Shown here piece after piece: positions 6,813-31,385 of a stretch of 34,769 bases of DNA. Position 1 is the first letter of the stretch; each line of letters begins with the position of its first letter. The DNA comes from Bacteroidia bacterium (GTDB lineage: Bacteria; Bacteroidota; Bacteroidia; B-17B0; Aurantibacillaceae). The DNA is taken from the NCBI GenBank assembly GCA_025451115.1, contig JANWKZ010000057.1, forward strand, positions 1-34,769. Reading direction: 5' to 3'. The notes below the pieces were generated by a model, which searched no databases, was not told the DNA's origin, and saw nothing but the letters and a program-made list of their open reading frames with translations. Position numbers and translations under genes: made by a program.

Positions 6813-7943
6813 ATGAAAAAGATCTTCTTTGTTGCTCCACTTGCCGCCCTGCTTTTTGCGTGTGGCGGAAACGATACAGCTAAAAATACCGGTTTTGAAC
6901 TGAAAGGCACGCTAACCAACGCGGCCGGCGGAGAGACCATTTACCTGGAAGAACTTTCTCCTATCGGAAAAGTACTCCTCGATTCAACGAAGCTGGATGA
7001 GAAAGGAAATTTTGCCTTTACGCATGCAGCGCCCACTGCAGGTTTTTATCGCGTGATGATCACCGAAGCCAATTTCGCGATGCTGGTGCTCGATTCTACC
7101 CAAAAAATAGAACTGAAAGCCGATTTTAAAGACCTTGGAAATACCTACTCTGTAGAAGGCTCACCGGATACTAAGGTTTTCCTTGAACTGAACGATCTAA
7201 GTAAGGATGTCCAGGTAAGTTCCGACTCCCTGCAGCGCGCCTTCCAGGCCGCTATGGGCGTTATTAAAATGGATTCTATGAAGGTAGACTCGTTGAACAA
7301 AGTATTTGAGCCGGTGTATATGGGCATGATCGAAGCACATCAAAAAAATGTGTCTGACCTGGTTGGAAAGAATAGTTCCTCTCTCTCTGCGCTCGCCGGA
7401 ATTCAGCAATTGGATCCCGACAAATATCTCGACCTGTACAAACGTGTTTATGCTGATCTTTCGGCGAAATTTCCCAACAACAAATACCTGGGCAAACTGC
7501 AAAAGGACATCGATGCTTTCTCGAAACTGGCCGGCGGCAGCGAAGCTCCTGATTTCACTTTTAACACACCCGAAGGAAAGCCTTTAGCGCTTTCTTCTCT
7601 AAAAGGAAAGATCGTATTGGTTGATTTCTGGGCCAGTTGGTGCGGGCCTTGCCGCAAGGAGAATCCCAACGTGGTACGTATGTACAAAAAGTACCACGGC
7701 AAAGGTTTCGAAATTTTGGGTGTATCGCTCGATGAAGACAAGGACAAATGGTTATCTGCTATTAAGAAAGATGGCCTTGTTTGGAATCACGTGAGCGATC
7801 TCAAGGGTTGGCAGAGTTCAGTTTGTCCGCTTTATGGCATTGAGGCCATTCCTTTTGCTATCCTGCTGGATAAGGATGGTAAGATCATTGCCAAGAATCT
7901 TAGAGGCGCGGCACTTGAGCAAAAGCTCGAAGAGCTTTTCTAG
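6813..7943 (+). CDS. TlpA-like thioredoxin-fold lipoprotein with N-terminal DUF4369-like domain
   Basis: Lipobox LLFACGG, DUF4369-like [17 protein letters not shown], thioredoxin [16 protein letters not shown]. Confidence 0.88.
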
Positions 7944-10900
7944 TAATTAAGAATAGGCGACAGCCACCTTTCAGCTTCTTCAACAGAAAGTTTTTTGCGT
8001 CGGGCATAATCCTCCACTTGCTCTTTGGTGATCTTTCCAACCCCAAAATAATGTGATTCGGGGTGTGAGAAATACAATCCACTCACGGCTGCTGTTGGAT
8101 ACATGGCCATGCTCTCGGTGAGCTTGATGCCGGTGTTCTTTTCCACATCAAGTAATTTCCAAATGAGAGGTTTTTCTGTATGGTCAGGCTGGGCAGGATA
8201 ACCCGGTGCCGGGCGAATGCCTGCATACTCTTCCTTGATCAATTGCTCATTGCTCAGGTTCTCACTTTTTGCGTAGCCCCAGATCTCGGTACGGACTTTT
8301 TTGTGCATGAGCTCCGCGAAGGCCTCAGCCAAACGGTCGGCCAGCGCTTTCAGCATGATGGAACTATAATCATCATGGTCCTTTTCAAAACGCCTGATAT
8401 GTTCTTCAATTCCTGCCCCGGTAGTTAAGGCAAAAGCTCCGATGAAGTCGCTTGAGCTCAAAGAAAGTGATCCGTTCTTCGGTTTTACGAAATCAGAAAG
8501 CGCTACATTGTATTGTCCGGCCGGTTTTTTGGTCTGCTGGCGAATTGAATGGAACTTTCCAAGAACGTTCTTTACTTCTTTGTCGTAAACCTCAATATCA
8601 TCTTCAGTTGCCAAAGCCGGGTAAATACCAATTACAGCACGCGCCGTAAGCCATTTTTCAGCTATGACCTGCTCCAGCATCTTTTGCGCGTCGGCAAAAA
8701 GCTTTTTTGCCTCCGTGCCACGCTCTTTGTCCTCCAGTATTTTTGGGTAGGAACCCTTCATCTCCCACGAGTGGAAGAAAGGTGTCCAGTCAATGAATTC
8801 AGCGATCTCCGCTATAGAATAATTGTCAAATACCTTATTTCCGATGAACGCGGGTTTCGTTATTTGGGTTTTATTCCAATCAACAGGAAATTTATTTCCG
8901 CGCGCTTCCTGCAGGCTGATGAATTTATTCTGGCCCTGCGCATTCTTGTTCTGTTCGCGCACGCGTTCGTAATCTTTGTTCACTTCGGTCATAAACGCTC
9001 CGCGCAGCTCATTTGAGATAAGACTGCTTGCAACAGGCACAGATTTACTTGCGTCATTCACGTGCACAACGGCATGCGAATAGTGCGGCGCCACTTTAAC
9101 GGCAGTATGCACTTTCGAGGTTGTAGCACCGCCAATAAGCAGTGGGATCTTGAACCCCTGGCGCTCCATTTCCTTGGCCACATGCACCATTTCATCCAGA
9201 GATGGAGTGATGAGTCCGCTTAGGCCGATCACATCTACGTTATGGTGACGCGCCTGCTCCAGGATCTTATCGCAGGAAACCATCACGCCCAGGTCGATGA
9301 TCTCATAATTGTTACAAGCCAATACAACGCCCACGATGTTTTTACCAATATCGTGTACGTCGCCCTTTACGGTAGCCATTAATATTTTGCCGGCATTTCT
9401 TTGTACGCTGCCGCTTTTCTTTTTTTCTTCTTCCATGAAGGGCAGGAGGTAGGCCACCGCTTTTTTCATTACGCGGGCACTTTTTACTACCTGGGGCAGG
9501 AACATTTTTCCGGCACCAAAAAGATCTCCCACTATGTTCATTCCATCCATGAGTGGTCCTTCAATGATGTCCAGTGTTTTCGGATATTTTTGGCGACATT
9601 CCTCAACGTCGGCATCAATATGTTCTACGATCCCTTTTACTAATGCGTGGGCCAGTCGTTTTTCAACGGGTTCTTTCCTCCAGGCTTCATCTTTCTCGGT
9701 TTTTTCGGAGCTTATGCCTTTGAGTTTTTCAGCATGCGTGATCAGGCGCTCGGTAGCGTCATCGCGACGATCCAACAGAACGTCTTCTACTCTTTCAAGC
9801 AGTTCTTTTTCTATTTGATCGTACACCACCAATTGAGATGGATTCACAATGCCCATGTCCATTCCATTCTTAATGGCGTGGAATAAAAAGGCCGAGTGAA
9901 TAGCTTCACGTACGTGGTCATTTCCTCTGAAAGAGAAAGAAACGTTACTTACGCCACCGCTTACTTTGGCGTATGGAAGATTTTCTTTTATCCATTTGGT
10001 AGCATTGAAGAAATCCAAAGCGTTCAGGCGATGTTCTTCCATGCCGGTAGCAACCGGGAAGATGTTAGGGTCGAAAATAATATCCTGCGGAGGAAAACCC
10101 ACTTTGTTTACCAAAACATCATAAGCTCTTTTACAGATATCGATTCGGCGTTGTAGTGTATCCGCCTGGCCTGTTTCGTCAAAAGCCATTACGATCACCG
10201 CAGCGCCGTATTGTTTTACTTTGTTGGCCTGTTCAATGAATTTTTCTTCTCCTTCTTTCAAAGAAATGGAGTTCACGATAGCCTTACCCTGCACGCATTT
10301 CAATCCCGCTTCAATGATCGGCCATTTGGAAGAATCGATCATGATCGGAACACGCGAAATATCAGGCTCCGAAGCGATCAGGTTCAGGAATTTGGTCATG
10401 GCGGCCTCGCCATCCAGCATTCCTTCGTCCATATTCACGTCGATCACCTGTGCGCCTCCTTCCACCTGCTCACGGGCTATCGAAAGGGCTTCATCGTAAT
10501 TGTTTTCTTTGATCAAGCGTAAGAATTTCTTGGATCCGGTAACATTTGTACGCTCACCCACGTTCATGAAATTACTTTCCGGACGCAGGGTTACGGGTTC
10601 TAATCCGCTTAAGTGCATCAAAGTATCCGGTTCCGGTTTTTTACGCGGCGCTGCGGTTTTGGCCAGCTCCGCAATACGCTTGATGTGCGAAGGTGTGGTT
10701 CCGCAACAACCTCCCACAATATTCAGGAAACCTGCTTTTAAAAAATCTTCTATCTGGTGGCCCATGGTATGGGCATCCTCATCATATTCTCCAAACTGGT
10801 TTGGCAGACCGGCGTTTGGATAGGCACTTACGTAAAAGGGCGCTTTTGTAGACAGCTCCTCAAGGTACGGACGCATATCTTTTGCTCCAAGGGCGCAGTT

Positions 10901-11626
10901 CAGTCCAACACTTAATAGGTTAACGTGAGAAACAGATTTCAAAAATGCTTCGGTAGTTTGCCCCGATAAAGTCCTTCCGCTTGCATCAGTAATAGTTCCT
11001 GATACCATCACCGGCATTTTCTTATTGATCTTTTCGCAATGGTTCTGGATGGCGAAAAGCGCTGCCTTCGCATTCAGTGTATCGAAAATAGTTTCTATCA
11101 ATAAAAGATCAGCCCCACCATCGATCAGTCCCCGTACTTGTTCTTCGTAAGCGGTAACCATCTCATCAAAGGTCACAGCACGGAAGCCGGGATCATTTAC
11201 GTTCGGAGATAAAGAGAGAGTTCTGTTGGTTGGACCAATAGCTCCGGCCACATATTTGGGCACAGTGTTACCTGTTTCCTTATTGAATTCAACGATAGCT
11301 TCCTTGGCAACCTTTGCCGATTCAACATTCAGTTCATAAGCCAGTTCCTGCATGTCATAATCGGCCATGGCAATGGTGGTGGCGCTGAAGGTATTGGTTT
11401 CGATGATATCGGCACCTGCTTTCAGATATTCTTTGTGAATGGCTTTGATGACATCCGGACGGGTAATAGACAGCAGGTCGTTGTTGCCCTTCACATCCTT
11501 GTGCCAGTCGGCAAAGCGTTTCCCGCGGTAATCCTTTTCCTCCAGCTTGTATTGCTGGATCATGGTGCCCATCGCGCCATCGATCACCAGTACTCTTTTC
11601 TCTAATTCTTTTTCGATCGTGCTCAT
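7940..11626 (-). CDS. metH: cobalamin-dependent methionine synthase, full-length multidomain
   Basis: [30 protein letters not shown]12 [14 protein letters not shown], activation-domain [13 protein letters not shown] and [12 protein letters not shown]; 1228 aa. Confidence 0.97.
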
Positions 11627-11629
11627 AAA

Positions 11630-12412
11630 CTAATTCAGTATTCCGTAATAGATTTTGGTATCATAATCCAGCCGAACTCTTCCGTTCTCCTGGTAACGCA
11701 TGAAGATCTTCTTCAGCGTGTAGATCATAAATTCGTAATCTGCGTGTCCCTCACCGGGCATGTAGGAAGAAGAAAGTACCCTGCCTTTCAATCCTGCAAA
11801 ATCCACGTCCTGGTAATTGTAGAAACTTTTTTCGTGGAATTCTCCGCCAAAGAACGGGGCAAATACACTTTTATCCTGCACGTTCTTATGATTCACAACC
11901 TTGTAATCGGTGCCAAACATCTGCAGGAAATCCTCATACACTTTTAGGAAATCGGTGGTATCGGTGCGACGGTCGTTCCACATCAGAACCACATTCCCGT
12001 TTGTTTTTAGTATGCGTTTGAATTCTTTTTTACTTTTCTCTTTGTCGAACCAATGAAAAGCCTGTCCGGCTAAAACCAGGTCGACCGAATGGTTCGATAA
12101 CTCCGTATGCTCCGCGATGCCTTCAATGCTTTTGAAATTCTGATAAGCTTCAAGAAATTTCTCAGCGGCTTCCCGCATTTCCCGGTTTGGTTCAATGCCT
12201 TTTACTTCATAGCCACGTTTCAGTAAAGGTTCTGCCGAAATTCCGGTCCCCGAGCCAATATCCGTGATTACAGCTCCTTTTGCGATCAAACCTTCGGTTT
12301 CCAGAAAGTCGAACACCTCCGCAGGGTAATGCGGACGGTACTTCACGTAGTTTTCTACTCGGTCGGAGAATCTATGTAGCGTGTCCTTGCTCACTGTTCT
12401 ATGTTTTGTCAC
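11630..12412 (-). CDS. class I SAM-dependent methyltransferase
   Basis: DIGSGTGISAEPLLKRG (motif I), GIAEHTELSNHSVDLVLAGQAFHWFD. The called GTG at 12412 lies inside a repeat element; GTG at 12394 (MSKDTLHRFSDRV) is an alternative start. Confidence 0.82.
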   Translation of the reverse strand: MTKHRTVSKDTLHRFSDRVENYVKYRPHYPAEVFDFLETEGLIAKGAVITDIGSGTGISAEPLLKRGYEVKGIEPNREMREAAEKFLEAYQNFKSIEGIAEHTELSNHSVDLVLAGQAFHWFDKEKSKKEFKRILKTNGNVVLMWNDRRTDTTDFLKVYEDFLQMFGTDYKVVNHKNVQDKSVFAPFFGGEFHEKSFYNYQDVDFAGLKGRVLSSSYMPGEGHADYEFMIYTLKKIFMRYQENGRVRLDYDTKIYYGILN

Positions 12413-12483: not shown

Positions 12484-12651
12484 GGCGATTGTCATAAAAT
12501 AAAAAATCCCTTCAAGCTTTAGCCGGAAGAGATCAGGTGTTTTTGCATCTATATCATCCGACTTATCTTGTCCGCTTTAACGGAACGAATTCCCACCTTC
12601 TTATAAAAGTTAGAAGTTATAAGTTAAAAATTATAAGGCTGTTACCTTCTG

Positions 12652-12676
12652 ACTTTTGACTTGCGACTTTTGACTT
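12652..12676. repeat. short direct repeat ACTTTTGACTT x2
   Basis: ACTTTTGACTT at 12652-12662 and 12666-12676, in an A/T-rich intergenic tract. Confidence 0.6.
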
Positions 12677-12816
12677 CTACCAGGGTTGGTAAGGCTTCAT
12701 TGGGCGTATCCCTCGGCCTTTCTTGATAAGTAGCTTGAAAGAACTGACGTAAAATTACGAATTATTGGTCAATCTGCAAAATGAGGTTTTCTTACCCCGA
12801 ATGGACATTTAGACCA

Positions 12817-28497: not shown

Positions 28498-28577
28498 AGG
28501 ATTTGCCCCATAAAAAGCGGCTTTTTTCGAAAGCTAAAAGTATTGACATCAAGGAGGTTAAAGCAAAAACTTATAGC

Positions 28578-28585
28578 TATCTTTG
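28578..28585 (+). promoter_or_regulatory. -7 box TATCTTTG just upstream of hutH
   Basis: Matches TAnnTTTG; ends 5 nt before the ATG at 28591; -33 element not clear. Confidence 0.45.
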
Positions 28586-28590
28586 TACCC

Positions 28591-30078
28591 ATGTTTTTAT
28601 TGGACCCCGGGAAGTATTTTACCCTTGAAGAATTAGAGCGGGTTGTGAGGTCGGGCGAGTCTTTGGCCTTTTCGCCCGCTGCCCTTAAAAATATTAAGAA
28701 TTGCCGCGCTTATCTCGATAAAAAGATCGCTTCGCAGAAAGAACCTGTGTATGGTGTGAACACCGGTTTTGGTTCTTTGTGCAATGTGGTGATCCCCGCC
28801 AAAGACCTTCAGCAATTACAGGAGAACCTAGTGAAATCGCACGCCTGTGGAATGGGGGAGGAAGTGCCGCGCGATGTGGTGAAGATCATGCTGCTGCTAA
28901 AGATCCGCAATTTCATTTATGGCAAATCTGCTGTAAGTATTGAAACTGCCGAACGCATGTTGTTCTTCTACAACAACGATATCCTTCCGGTTATTTATCA
29001 GCAAGGCTCTTTAGGTGCTTCGGGCGATCTCGCGCCTTTGGCACACTTAACATTGCCTTTGCTTGGACTGGGAGAAGTTTACCACGAAGGAAAAAAGACA
29101 AACACGTCAGATCTTTATAAAAAACTCAAATTAAAACCGGTTGCGTTGCAATCTAAAGAAGGACTCGCTTTATTGAACGGGACGCAGTTCATGAGCGCTT
29201 ACGCAGCCTGGTGTTTGATGAGATCGAACCACATGAATAAGCTGGCGGATCTCACCGGGGCGCTTGCTCTCGATGCTTTTTTGGGAAGAACGGACCCTTT
29301 CAGTGACGGAATTCAGAACGTACGTCCGCATAAGGGACAGATTGAAACAGCAAAGGCTGTAAAAGGATTTTTAAAAGGAAGTAAGATCGCGGCAAAGAAA
29401 AAAGAAGCTGTGCAGGACCCATATTCCTTCCGCTGTATTCCACAAGTGCATGGTGCTACAAAAGATGTTGTGAGGCACGTTGCATCGGTTATTGAAACTG
29501 AAATAAATTCTGTTACAGATAACCCCACTGTTTTTCCGGAGACCGATGAGATCATTTCAGGCGGAAATTTTCACGGCCAGCCTTTAGCGCTTGCAATGGA
29601 TTATTTAGCGATGGGTATTGCCGAATTAGGCAGTATCTCTGAAAGAAGAACGTATCAATTGATCTCGGGAACAAGAAAACTGCCTCCTTTCCTGGTGGCA
29701 AAACCGGGTATCAACTCCGGTTTCATGATCCCGCAGTATACCGCAGCTTCTATTGTAAGCCAGAACAAACAATTATGTTCGCCCGCTTCGGTGGATAGCA
29801 TTGTTTCTTCAAATGGACAAGAAGATCATGTGAGCATGGGAGCGAATGCCGCTACCAAATGTTATAAGGTAGTGGAAAATACTTATAAAGTGTTGGCCAT
29901 CGAGTTCATGAACGCCGCGCAGGCTTTGGAATTCCGCAGGCCGCTCACATCTTCACCGATGATCGAAAAAACAGTGAAAGAATTCCGTAAGAAAGTAGCT
30001 TTCATTGAACAGGATAAAGTAATGTTCACCGAAATAGATAATACGCTTAAATTTGTTAAAACTTTGGATTTAAAATAA
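28591..30078 (+). CDS. hutH: aromatic amino acid lyase, best read as histidine ammonia-lyase
   Basis: MIO-forming GSLGASGDLAPLAH; VNTGFGSL; VKSHACGMG (Ser-His pair as in HAL); QEDHVSMGANAA; 495 aa from ATG 28591. Confidence 0.88.
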   Translation: MFLLDPGKYFTLEELERVVRSGESLAFSPAALKNIKNCRAYLDKKIASQKEPVYGVNTGFGSLCNVVIPAKDLQQLQENLVKSHACGMGEEVPRDVVKIMLLLKIRNFIYGKSAVSIETAERMLFFYNNDILPVIYQQGSLGASGDLAPLAHLTLPLLGLGEVYHEGKKTNTSDLYKKLKLKPVALQSKEGLALLNGTQFMSAYAAWCLMRSNHMNKLADLTGALALDAFLGRTDPFSDGIQNVRPHKGQIETAKAVKGFLKGSKIAAKKKEAVQDPYSFRCIPQVHGATKDVVRHVASVIETEINSVTDNPTVFPETDEIISGGNFHGQPLALAMDYLAMGIAELGSISERRTYQLISGTRKLPPFLVAKPGINSGFMIPQYTAASIVSQNKQLCSPASVDSIVSSNGQEDHVSMGANAATKCYKVVENTYKVLAIEFMNAAQALEFRRPLTSSPMIEKTVKEFRKKVAFIEQDKVMFTEIDNTLKFVKTLDLK

Positions 30079-30088
30079 TGTTGTATTT

Positions 30089-30227
30089 GCGTTAAGGATA
30101 CAAAAGGCCCGAAGGGGTTCTTTTTTGAGCCGCCTGTATTTGCGGATCAAAAAAAACGGAACCCTTTTGTAGCCTGGCCCCGCACGTAATGATTCACTGA
30201 AAGAAAATTACCAACGCGGGGAAACGC
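30089..30227 (+). ncRNA. candidate structured RNA / repeat element upstream of the cysteine desulfurase
   Basis: Closing stem GCGTT(30089-30093)/AACGC(30223-30227). Hairpin 1: ACAAAAGG(30100-30107)/CCTTTTGT(30163-30170), GGTTC/GAACC, TTTTTTGA(30121-30128)/TCAAAAAA(30147-30154), CCGC/GCGG. Hairpin 2: CCCCGC(30178-30183)/GCGGGG(30216-30221), GTAAT/ATTAC. Confidence 0.6.
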
Positions 30228-30242
30228 CCAAAACACCAAAAA

Positions 30243-31385
30243 ATGAAAGTTTATTTAGATAACGCCGCCACCACGAAACTTGATGAGGAAGTTCTGAACG
30301 CCATGCTTCCTTATATGAAGGAAGAGTTTGGAAACCCGTCTTCCATTCACGGTTTTGGTCGCAAAACGCGCTCGGCCATTGAAACGGCGCGTAAAACGGT
30401 TTCAAAACTGTTGAATGTAACACCTGCCGAGATCTTTTTTACTTCGGGCGGAACGGAGGCCGATAACATGGCTATTGTAAAGACCATTGAGACTTTTGGT
30501 ATTAAGCACGCCATCACTTCCAAAATAGAACACCACGCAGTTGAGCATACGCTCCAGGAGATGGAAAAGGAAGGAAAGATCAAATTGAGCTGGGTGAACC
30601 TCGATAAAAAAGGAAATGTAGACCTGGCCCACCTGGAAGAATTGCTGAAGGCAAACCCAAAGTCATTGGTTTCATTGATGCATGCCAACAACGAGGTGGG
30701 GACTCTGCTTCCGATAAATAAAGTGGGTGAAATTTGCGAGAAATACGATGCTATTTTCCATAGTGATACAGTACAAACTATGGGACATTTCGCCATGGAC
30801 CTCCGCGCGATGAAAGTGCACATGGTTACCTGCGCAGCGCATAAATTCCATGGACCGAAAGGCGTTGGTTTTCTTTATGTTAATAATACTTTGAAATTGA
30901 AACCGCTTATTCACGGCGGCGCACAGGAGCGCAACATGCGTGGAGGAACGGAGAACGTTTATGGAATTGTGGGTCTTGCCAAAGCCTTCGAGATCTGCAA
31001 CCGCGAGATGCAGGAACACCAGGATCATATACGTGGTTTGAAGAACTACATGCGCGAACAACTGCAAAAAAATGTTCCGGGTGTTGAATTTAACGGAGAA
31101 ACGGACGAACATAGTTTATATACCGTATTGAACGTATTACTTCCACCAAGCGAGGACGGAGAAATGTTGTTGTTCAACCTCGATATACAAGGTATAGCCG
31201 CTTCGGGTGGAAGCGCTTGCTCATCGGGCAGCAACCAGGGCTCGCATGTATTGCGCGGTCTGGATGTGGATATGTCGAGACCATCAGTTCGTTTTTCCTT
31301 TTGCAAATACAATACAAAAGAGGAGATCGATTATGCTATTGGCAAATTAGTGGAGATATTAAAAATTAAAGTTACGGCAAAATAA
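30243..31385 (+). CDS. cysteine desulfurase (NifS/IscS-type)
   Basis: YLDNAATTKLDEEV, GNPSSIHGFGRK, TSGGTEADN, AAHKFHGPKGVGFLY, SGGSACSSGS. Confidence 0.95.
   Translation: MKVYLDNAATTKLDEEVLNAMLPYMKEEFGNPSSIHGFGRKTRSAIETARKTVSKLLNVTPAEIFFTSGGTEADNMAIVKTIETFGIKHAITSKIEHHAVEHTLQEMEKEGKIKLSWVNLDKKGNVDLAHLEELLKANPKSLVSLMHANNEVGTLLPINKVGEICEKYDAIFHSDTVQTMGHFAMDLRAMKVHMVTCAAHKFHGPKGVGFLYVNNTLKLKPLIHGGAQERNMRGGTENVYGIVGLAKAFEICNREMQEHQDHIRGLKNYMREQLQKNVPGVEFNGETDEHSLYTVLNVLLPPSEDGEMLLFNLDIQGIAASGGSACSSGSNQGSHVLRGLDVDMSRPSVRFSFCKYNTKEEIDYAIGKLVEILKIKVTAK

Follow-up and report, generated by a model that had tools for sequence, protein, structure and literature searches.

The structured element between hutH and a cysteine desulfurase gene in the window that we analyzed (34,769 nucleotides of contig JANWKZ010000057.1 from Bacteroidia bacterium assembly GCA_025451115.1) belongs, as one copy, to a dispersed family of non-coding repeats that fold. 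We consider it probable that the family is a non-autonomous mobile DNA repeat, in which a T-shaped three-way junction is formed by the strand that reads 5' GCGTTAGGG. The initial annotation, made from the sequence of this one locus, had offered three readings: a cis-regulatory RNA serving Fe-S or cysteine homeostasis, an independent small RNA, and a copy of a structured repeat family dispersed in Bacteroidota. The last is confirmed, with a range that extends to Treponema and Fibrobacter; the first is contradicted by the high copy number beside unrelated genes and by a gap that is empty or reversed in relatives, and the second is disfavored by a pairing pattern that does not resemble that of RNA, so that the interpretation as a whole is partly supported.

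The closing stem GCGTT/AACGC and the stems of both hairpins that had been described were all found at their positions (Table 1), and the element does end, at 30227, 15 nt before the desulfurase ATG at 30243. Folding of 30080-30242, which had been proposed as a check, gave -54.2 kcal/mol (z -3.37), and none of 200 shuffled sequences folded as well; the opposite strand folds equally well and also beats 200 shuffles, so energy alone gives no guide to strand. The conserved unit is a little longer than the stretch first delimited, since it takes in the tail CCAAA (30228-30232), which hardly varies throughout the family. In the window copy, the interrupted long stem spans 30095-30175 and contains two additional pairs, G30117-C30157 and T30118-A30156, the second of which covaries. 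The optional mini-hairpin is retained in own-genome copies in the form CCC-GNA-GGG, and the apical part of arm 1 is unrelated from copy to copy.

Table 1. Parts of the element and its neighboring genes, with positions in the window
Feature	Position	Strand	Basis
Whole element (conserved unit)	about 30087..30232	+ (strand of the folded form)	Family alignment; information content of the flanks
P1 5' side, GCGTT (partner 30223-30227)	30089..30093	+	Sequence; P1 covariation in the family
P2 5' side, RGG (partner CCY 30173-30175), then the A30098.G30172 mismatch	30095..30097	+	Family counts
Arm 1 lower stem (partner 30163-30171)	30099..30107	+	Both-side changes in own-genome copies
CCC-GAA-GGG mini-hairpin (GNA triloop) of the own-genome subfamily	30108..30116	+	
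Arm 1 upper stem-loop	30117..30157	+	T30118-A30156 covaries to C-G
Core AGCCTGGC (family AGCCYGAC): P2 3' side, two-base linker, first base of arm 2	30171..30178	+	
Arm 2 (P4), CCCCGC/GCGGGG plus GTAAT/ATTAC	30178..30221	+	Covariation; compensatory changes
Arm 2 outer stem sides	CCCCGC 30178-30183 with GCGGGG 30216-30221	+	
P1 3' side AACGC (30223-30227) and tail CCAAA (30228-30232)	30223..30232	+	Near-invariant
hutH, histidine ammonia-lyase (upstream neighbor, apparent bystander)	28543..30078	+	TIGR01225, 611 bits
NifS/IscS-type cysteine desulfurase (downstream neighbor, apparent bystander)	30243..31385	+	TIGR03402, 423 bits, below the equivalog cut-off

Comparison of copies within the genome, a draft assembly of 2.75 Mb in 235 contigs (74% complete), provides evidence for the structure. 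A DNA search returned many partial matches, the significant ones at about 74-100% identity, and a covariance model built from ten own-genome copies (R1) recovered 16 strong copies and one weak copy, which answers the question of same-genome copy number raised with the initial annotation. Compensatory change, the other test then envisaged, is abundant: among the ten copies 98.6% of pair cells are paired, and 8 pairs and 29 cells are changed on both sides, compared with a mean of 9.4 cells after shuffling and no value as high in 500 trials. Six pairs with both-side changes in own-genome copies belong to the P2/P3 helix, and individual examples include left TACAAAAGG with right CCTTTTGTA, left TGCAGCGGG with right CCCGCAGCA, and left CACAGAGGG with right CCCTCAGTG. 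The covariation score of 0.272 for these ten copies falls to 0.112 or less when the partner is slid by 1 to 3 columns, and the signal is lost. It is comparison, beyond the computed fold, that gives the firm evidence for the structure. Other dispersed palindromes of the same genome (CCCGATAGCTATCGGG; CCTGCCCGCC...GGCAGGCGGG) sit inside or beside element copies at L011, L015, L020, and L021.

R1 also matched relatives from other families of the class, and the core AGCCCGAC-N(20-50)-GGAACGCCCAAA, used as a search pattern on GTDB representatives, occurred in at least 120 stretches; the 5' end GCGTTAGGGAT lay at the right distance in about 110 of the 120 stretches listed. Carriers among the matches listed include Flavobacteriales, Bacteroidales, Sphingobacteriales, Chitinophagales, several Treponema metagenome-assembled genomes (MAGs), and Fibrobacter intestinalis; matches in Phycisphaerae, Gemmatimonadota, and Synechococcus do not have the 5' core and appear to be chance hits. 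A broad covariance model (R2) was built from 41 sequences; because the core pattern had served to pick part of this alignment set, P1 and AGCCCGAC look more invariant in it than they are. With this model, copies numbered 104, 68, and 67 in three MAGs of the same genus and 36 in G027. Counts elsewhere were 101 (a termite-gut Bacteroidales MAG), 82 (a Flavobacterium MAG), 43 (a Pedobacter genome), 21 (F. intestinalis), and 6 (a Treponema genome), and R2 found none in G011, G015-G019, G021-G023, G025, and G029. In an even sample of Bacteroidota, at least 51 of 299 genomes carry the family, a lower bound obtained with strict filters.

Copies are typically 85-240 nt long and share a three-way junction plan consisting of P1, P2, a variable arm 1, the core AGCCYGAC, a variable arm 2, and the tail ACGCCCAAA. 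The GCGTT/AACGC of P1 is replaced in step by GCGTG/CACGC in 22 of 187 copies; a single A links P1 to P2, where the variable pair of RGG/CCY is G-C in 170 of 187 copies, A-T in 15, and G-T in 2. Arm 1 opens with an A.G mismatch in 187 of 187 copies, followed by a T-A pair and then by a freely covarying pair (T-A 102, G-C 39, A-T 31); next comes, in most members, a GNA/GNA internal loop, in place of which the subfamily represented in the window has a stem, and then two further covarying pairs. The linker between P2 and arm 2 is usually GA, and the first pair of arm 2 is always C-G, whereas any Watson-Crick pair can stand in second and third place. One base separates arm 2 from P1, after which the tail CCAAA follows directly. 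The arm interiors are wholly different between subfamilies. In the flanks of 214 copies, pyrimidines are enriched at -2 and -1 on the 5' side and the 3' side is AT rich, with nothing else conserved.

Departures from pairing bear on which molecule folds. In helices kept as RNA, G.U is expected to be the commonest departure and A.C to be rare. At arm 2 positions flanked by Watson-Crick pairs, we counted 763 Watson-Crick pairs, 13 G.T, and 15 A.C, whereas tRNA control stems from the same loci, counted in the same manner, gave 255 Watson-Crick pairs, 15 G.U, and no A.C (Fisher p = 0.0004, only indicative since the copies are related); the way of counting itself leans slightly towards G.T, which makes the result a conservative one. 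With G.T no commoner than A.C, the pairing looks to be kept at the DNA level. On the top strand, A.G and G.A mismatches total 31, compared with 3 for C.T and T.C; purine-purine mismatches are thus tolerated and pyrimidine ones are not. Together with the invariant A.G of arm 1, this suggests that the folding strand is the top one. To judge from these base counts, recognition of folded single-stranded DNA is favored, although not proved: equal numbers of G.T and A.C are also unlike what is expected of stably folded single-stranded DNA, and decaying copies may be the cause. A structured RNA family, with copies representing small RNA genes or spreading in SINE-like fashion through RNA copied back into DNA, would account for the rich covariation and for purine mismatches of the sort usual in RNA internal loops, but we regard it as unlikely: the lack of preference for G.U over A.C is at odds with the tRNAs from the same loci, the flanks are devoid of a conserved promoter or terminator, and reverse transcriptase is missing from the copy-rich genomes G001, G031, and G034. 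The Rfam covariance search suggested with the initial annotation produced no family match at the element; nothing reached gathering score, and a relaxed threshold gave only chance-level matches.

Near-identical copies at different sites (97% identity in G031 and 98-100% in a Pedobacter genome) indicate recent amplification. In the mobile-repeat model that we favor, a trans-acting enzyme would recognize the folded single strand through the junction, the A.G mismatch, the purine mismatches of GNA/GNA, and the ACGCCCAAA tail, and the same putative enzyme would move the element without target duplication and mostly into intergenic DNA. At most 6 of 212 copies have repeats of 4 or more nucleotides at any of 100 offset combinations (1.6 after shuffling), and no gene-bearing relative with the same ends was found in 3.3 Mb of loci around copies; L165, considered as a gene-carrying version, has only a long arm. 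Neither the window copy nor a Salinimicrobium copy had a BLAST match in plasmids or phages. Two observations count against a mobile repeat of this kind. No mobilizing enzyme was found among the candidates examined, and single-strand transposition often shows replication-strand bias, but no link was found in two complete genomes (pooled 9+/13- versus 15+/18-). A blocky orientation of copies in G235 and G207 was discounted, as GC3 skew places the replichores elsewhere. In the Pedobacter genome, L287 9493-10252 holds three near-identical copies in a tandem array with units of about 330 bp, the spacer of which contains a further foldable repeat that shares the arm motif AACGAAAAGCCC...GAGGACTTGGAGTGATAG.

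The presence or absence of Y1/RAYT transposases, IS91 Y2 transposases, reverse transcriptases, and integron integrases does not follow copy number. A dispersed, intergenic, folded repeat without target duplication is what a miniature IS200/IS605-type or RAYT (Y1) derivative of REP type would look like, and Y1 genes are present in some carriers; such an origin is nevertheless highly unlikely, since PF01797 is absent from the copy-rich genomes G006 (100% complete), G027 (98%), G008 (96%), and G009 (93%) and occurs in genomes without copies, the 214 copies share neither a GT[AG]G nor a CGTC foot, and no recurrent Y1 neighbor appears among the neighbor clusters listed, which were not annotated family by family. 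We attach a similarly low probability to a MITE whose short terminal inverted repeats are moved by the DDE transposase of an insertion sequence: its ends would be the inverted repeats GCGTT/AACGC and the copy bursts in some genomes would be in keeping with it, but target duplication is absent at every boundary offset tested, the 3.3 Mb of surrounding loci hold no gene-bearing relative with these ends, and a DDE enzyme has no need of internal covariation. Integron attC sites combine conserved ends and a variable folded interior with strand-specific recognition; with its own conserved ends, variable arms, and folding strand, the element is built on the same principle, and IntI-like recombinases occur in some of its carriers. 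An attC-like site moved by an integron-type tyrosine recombinase is nonetheless extremely improbable: none of 20 genomes had a match above the TIGR02249 cut-off, IntI-like matches in split form occur in copy-free genomes too and are missing from the copy-rich genomes G031, G033, and G035, no cassette arrays were seen, and the box order is opposite, with GTT on the 5' side and AAC on the 3' side, so that the element runs GCGTTAGGG ... AACGCCC and not RYYYAAC ... GTTRRRY. An IS91 (Y2) derivative was rejected, PF04986 being absent from all copy-rich genomes and present only in the copy-free G019 and G021. Tyrosine recombinases of about 360-430 aa are encoded at G006:C43, G027:C45, G034:C3, G021:C38, and G001:C278; the integron integrase model matches them in two strong blocks, each below cut-off, with the middle unmatched.

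The surroundings of the copies show no preference for orientation. Among 178 copies with clear neighbors under simple ORF calling, tandem gaps hold 50 same-sense and 54 antisense copies, and the tandem, divergent, and convergent totals of 104, 41, and 33 match in proportion the 376, 131, and 107 counted for background intergenic regions of the same loci. Neighbors are mostly unrelated housekeeping genes, together with one lineage-specific context in rumen Bacteroidales; the fixed position, sense orientation, and single functional gene class of a riboswitch or leader were not found. The lack of orientation preference and the unrelated neighbors exclude a cis-acting leader as the function of the family. 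In the rumen context, subfamily copies at L126, L128, L146, L167, L176, L177, L195, L204, and L207 keep, across several MAGs, one common setting near small unidentified genes and a dnaG-like primase, unlike the dispersed copies elsewhere.

The window copy fits this picture. In G004 and G006, genomes of the same genus, about 13 and 18 nt separate hutH from the desulfurase gene, with no element in the gap; the gap in G002 is about 430 nt, likewise without the element, and G001 has a different element there in opposite orientation. No hutH was found beside the desulfurase gene in G003 and G005. An empty or reversed gap in relatives identifies the window copy as a lineage-specific insertion, the empty sites being those of related species and not of strains, with precise excision not observed. 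From orientation and subfamily we infer that the gap was probably hit at least twice independently. The copy appears to be a bystander between hutH and the desulfurase gene, not controlling the latter, and any effect on the desulfurase would be accidental co-option. That it could be a leader RNA of the desulfurase, as its sense orientation and position immediately before the ATG might suggest, has a negligible probability given that no element precedes the orthologous gene in G004, G006, and G002, that the element in G001 is reversed, and that other copies adjoin unrelated genes in both orientations.

Several known repeat classes resemble the family in part. ERIC, RUP, and Correia-type repeats are MITE-like, dispersed, non-coding, and foldable, with lengths of about 100-150 bp, and are linked to insertion sequence ends and target duplication; their sequence differs from that of the element, in which target duplication was not seen. 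Copies in the Treponema MAGs L103, L111, L112, and L122 lie in frame within a MetH-like gene, and this in-frame insertion recalls the in-gene palindromic elements of Rickettsia, although the sequences are unrelated and most copies of the element are intergenic; at L111 the copy occupies residues 619-658, between the Pterin_bind and B12-binding_2 domains, with the core reading ALGI...GTPK. REP and REPIN sequences with RAYT (TnpA-REP) are likewise high-copy intergenic palindromes of patchy distribution that are thought to be moved as folded single strands. REPs are single hairpins of 20-65 nt whose foot is GT[AG]G and which have a cognate Y1 gene (PMC6006769, PMC3733652), whereas the element is a three-way junction, typically of 85-240 nt, and without the foot or a linked Y1 gene. 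CGTC-tagged REPs, which occur in Bacteroidetes, Spirochaetes, and other phyla with no dedicated transposase, have an 8-9-bp stem, a 4-5-nt loop, and a CGTC tag (PMC3733652, PMC6006769); the element differs in its 5-bp P1, its two long arms, and its core.

In the openly accessible literature we found no relevant paper that prints the core or describes the family; subscription papers were mostly not covered, and a prior description there is possible. We put forward only tentatively, as a minority expectation, that the element represents a previously unrecognized class of single-strand recombination or transposition site, a T-shaped three-way junction of invariant core and interchangeable arms, spread over at least three phyla and served by an enzyme outside the known mobilizer families. 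If the mobile-repeat reading is right, a very common intergenic feature of genomes of the Flavobacterium, Pedobacter, and Bacteroidales type has gone unannotated, and a near-invariant core across three phyla, with arms alike only in their pairing, would imply a conserved recognizer for which searches can be made. The family would also caution against taking such elements for riboregulators of adjoining genes, and it would be a confounder for covariation-based RNA discovery.

Elsewhere in the window, a SAM riboswitch (RF00162, 57.8 bits) lies at 12560-12732 on the - strand, with a methyltransferase-like ORF (11630-12412) and metH (7940-11626) downstream; these plausibly constitute a methionine operon.
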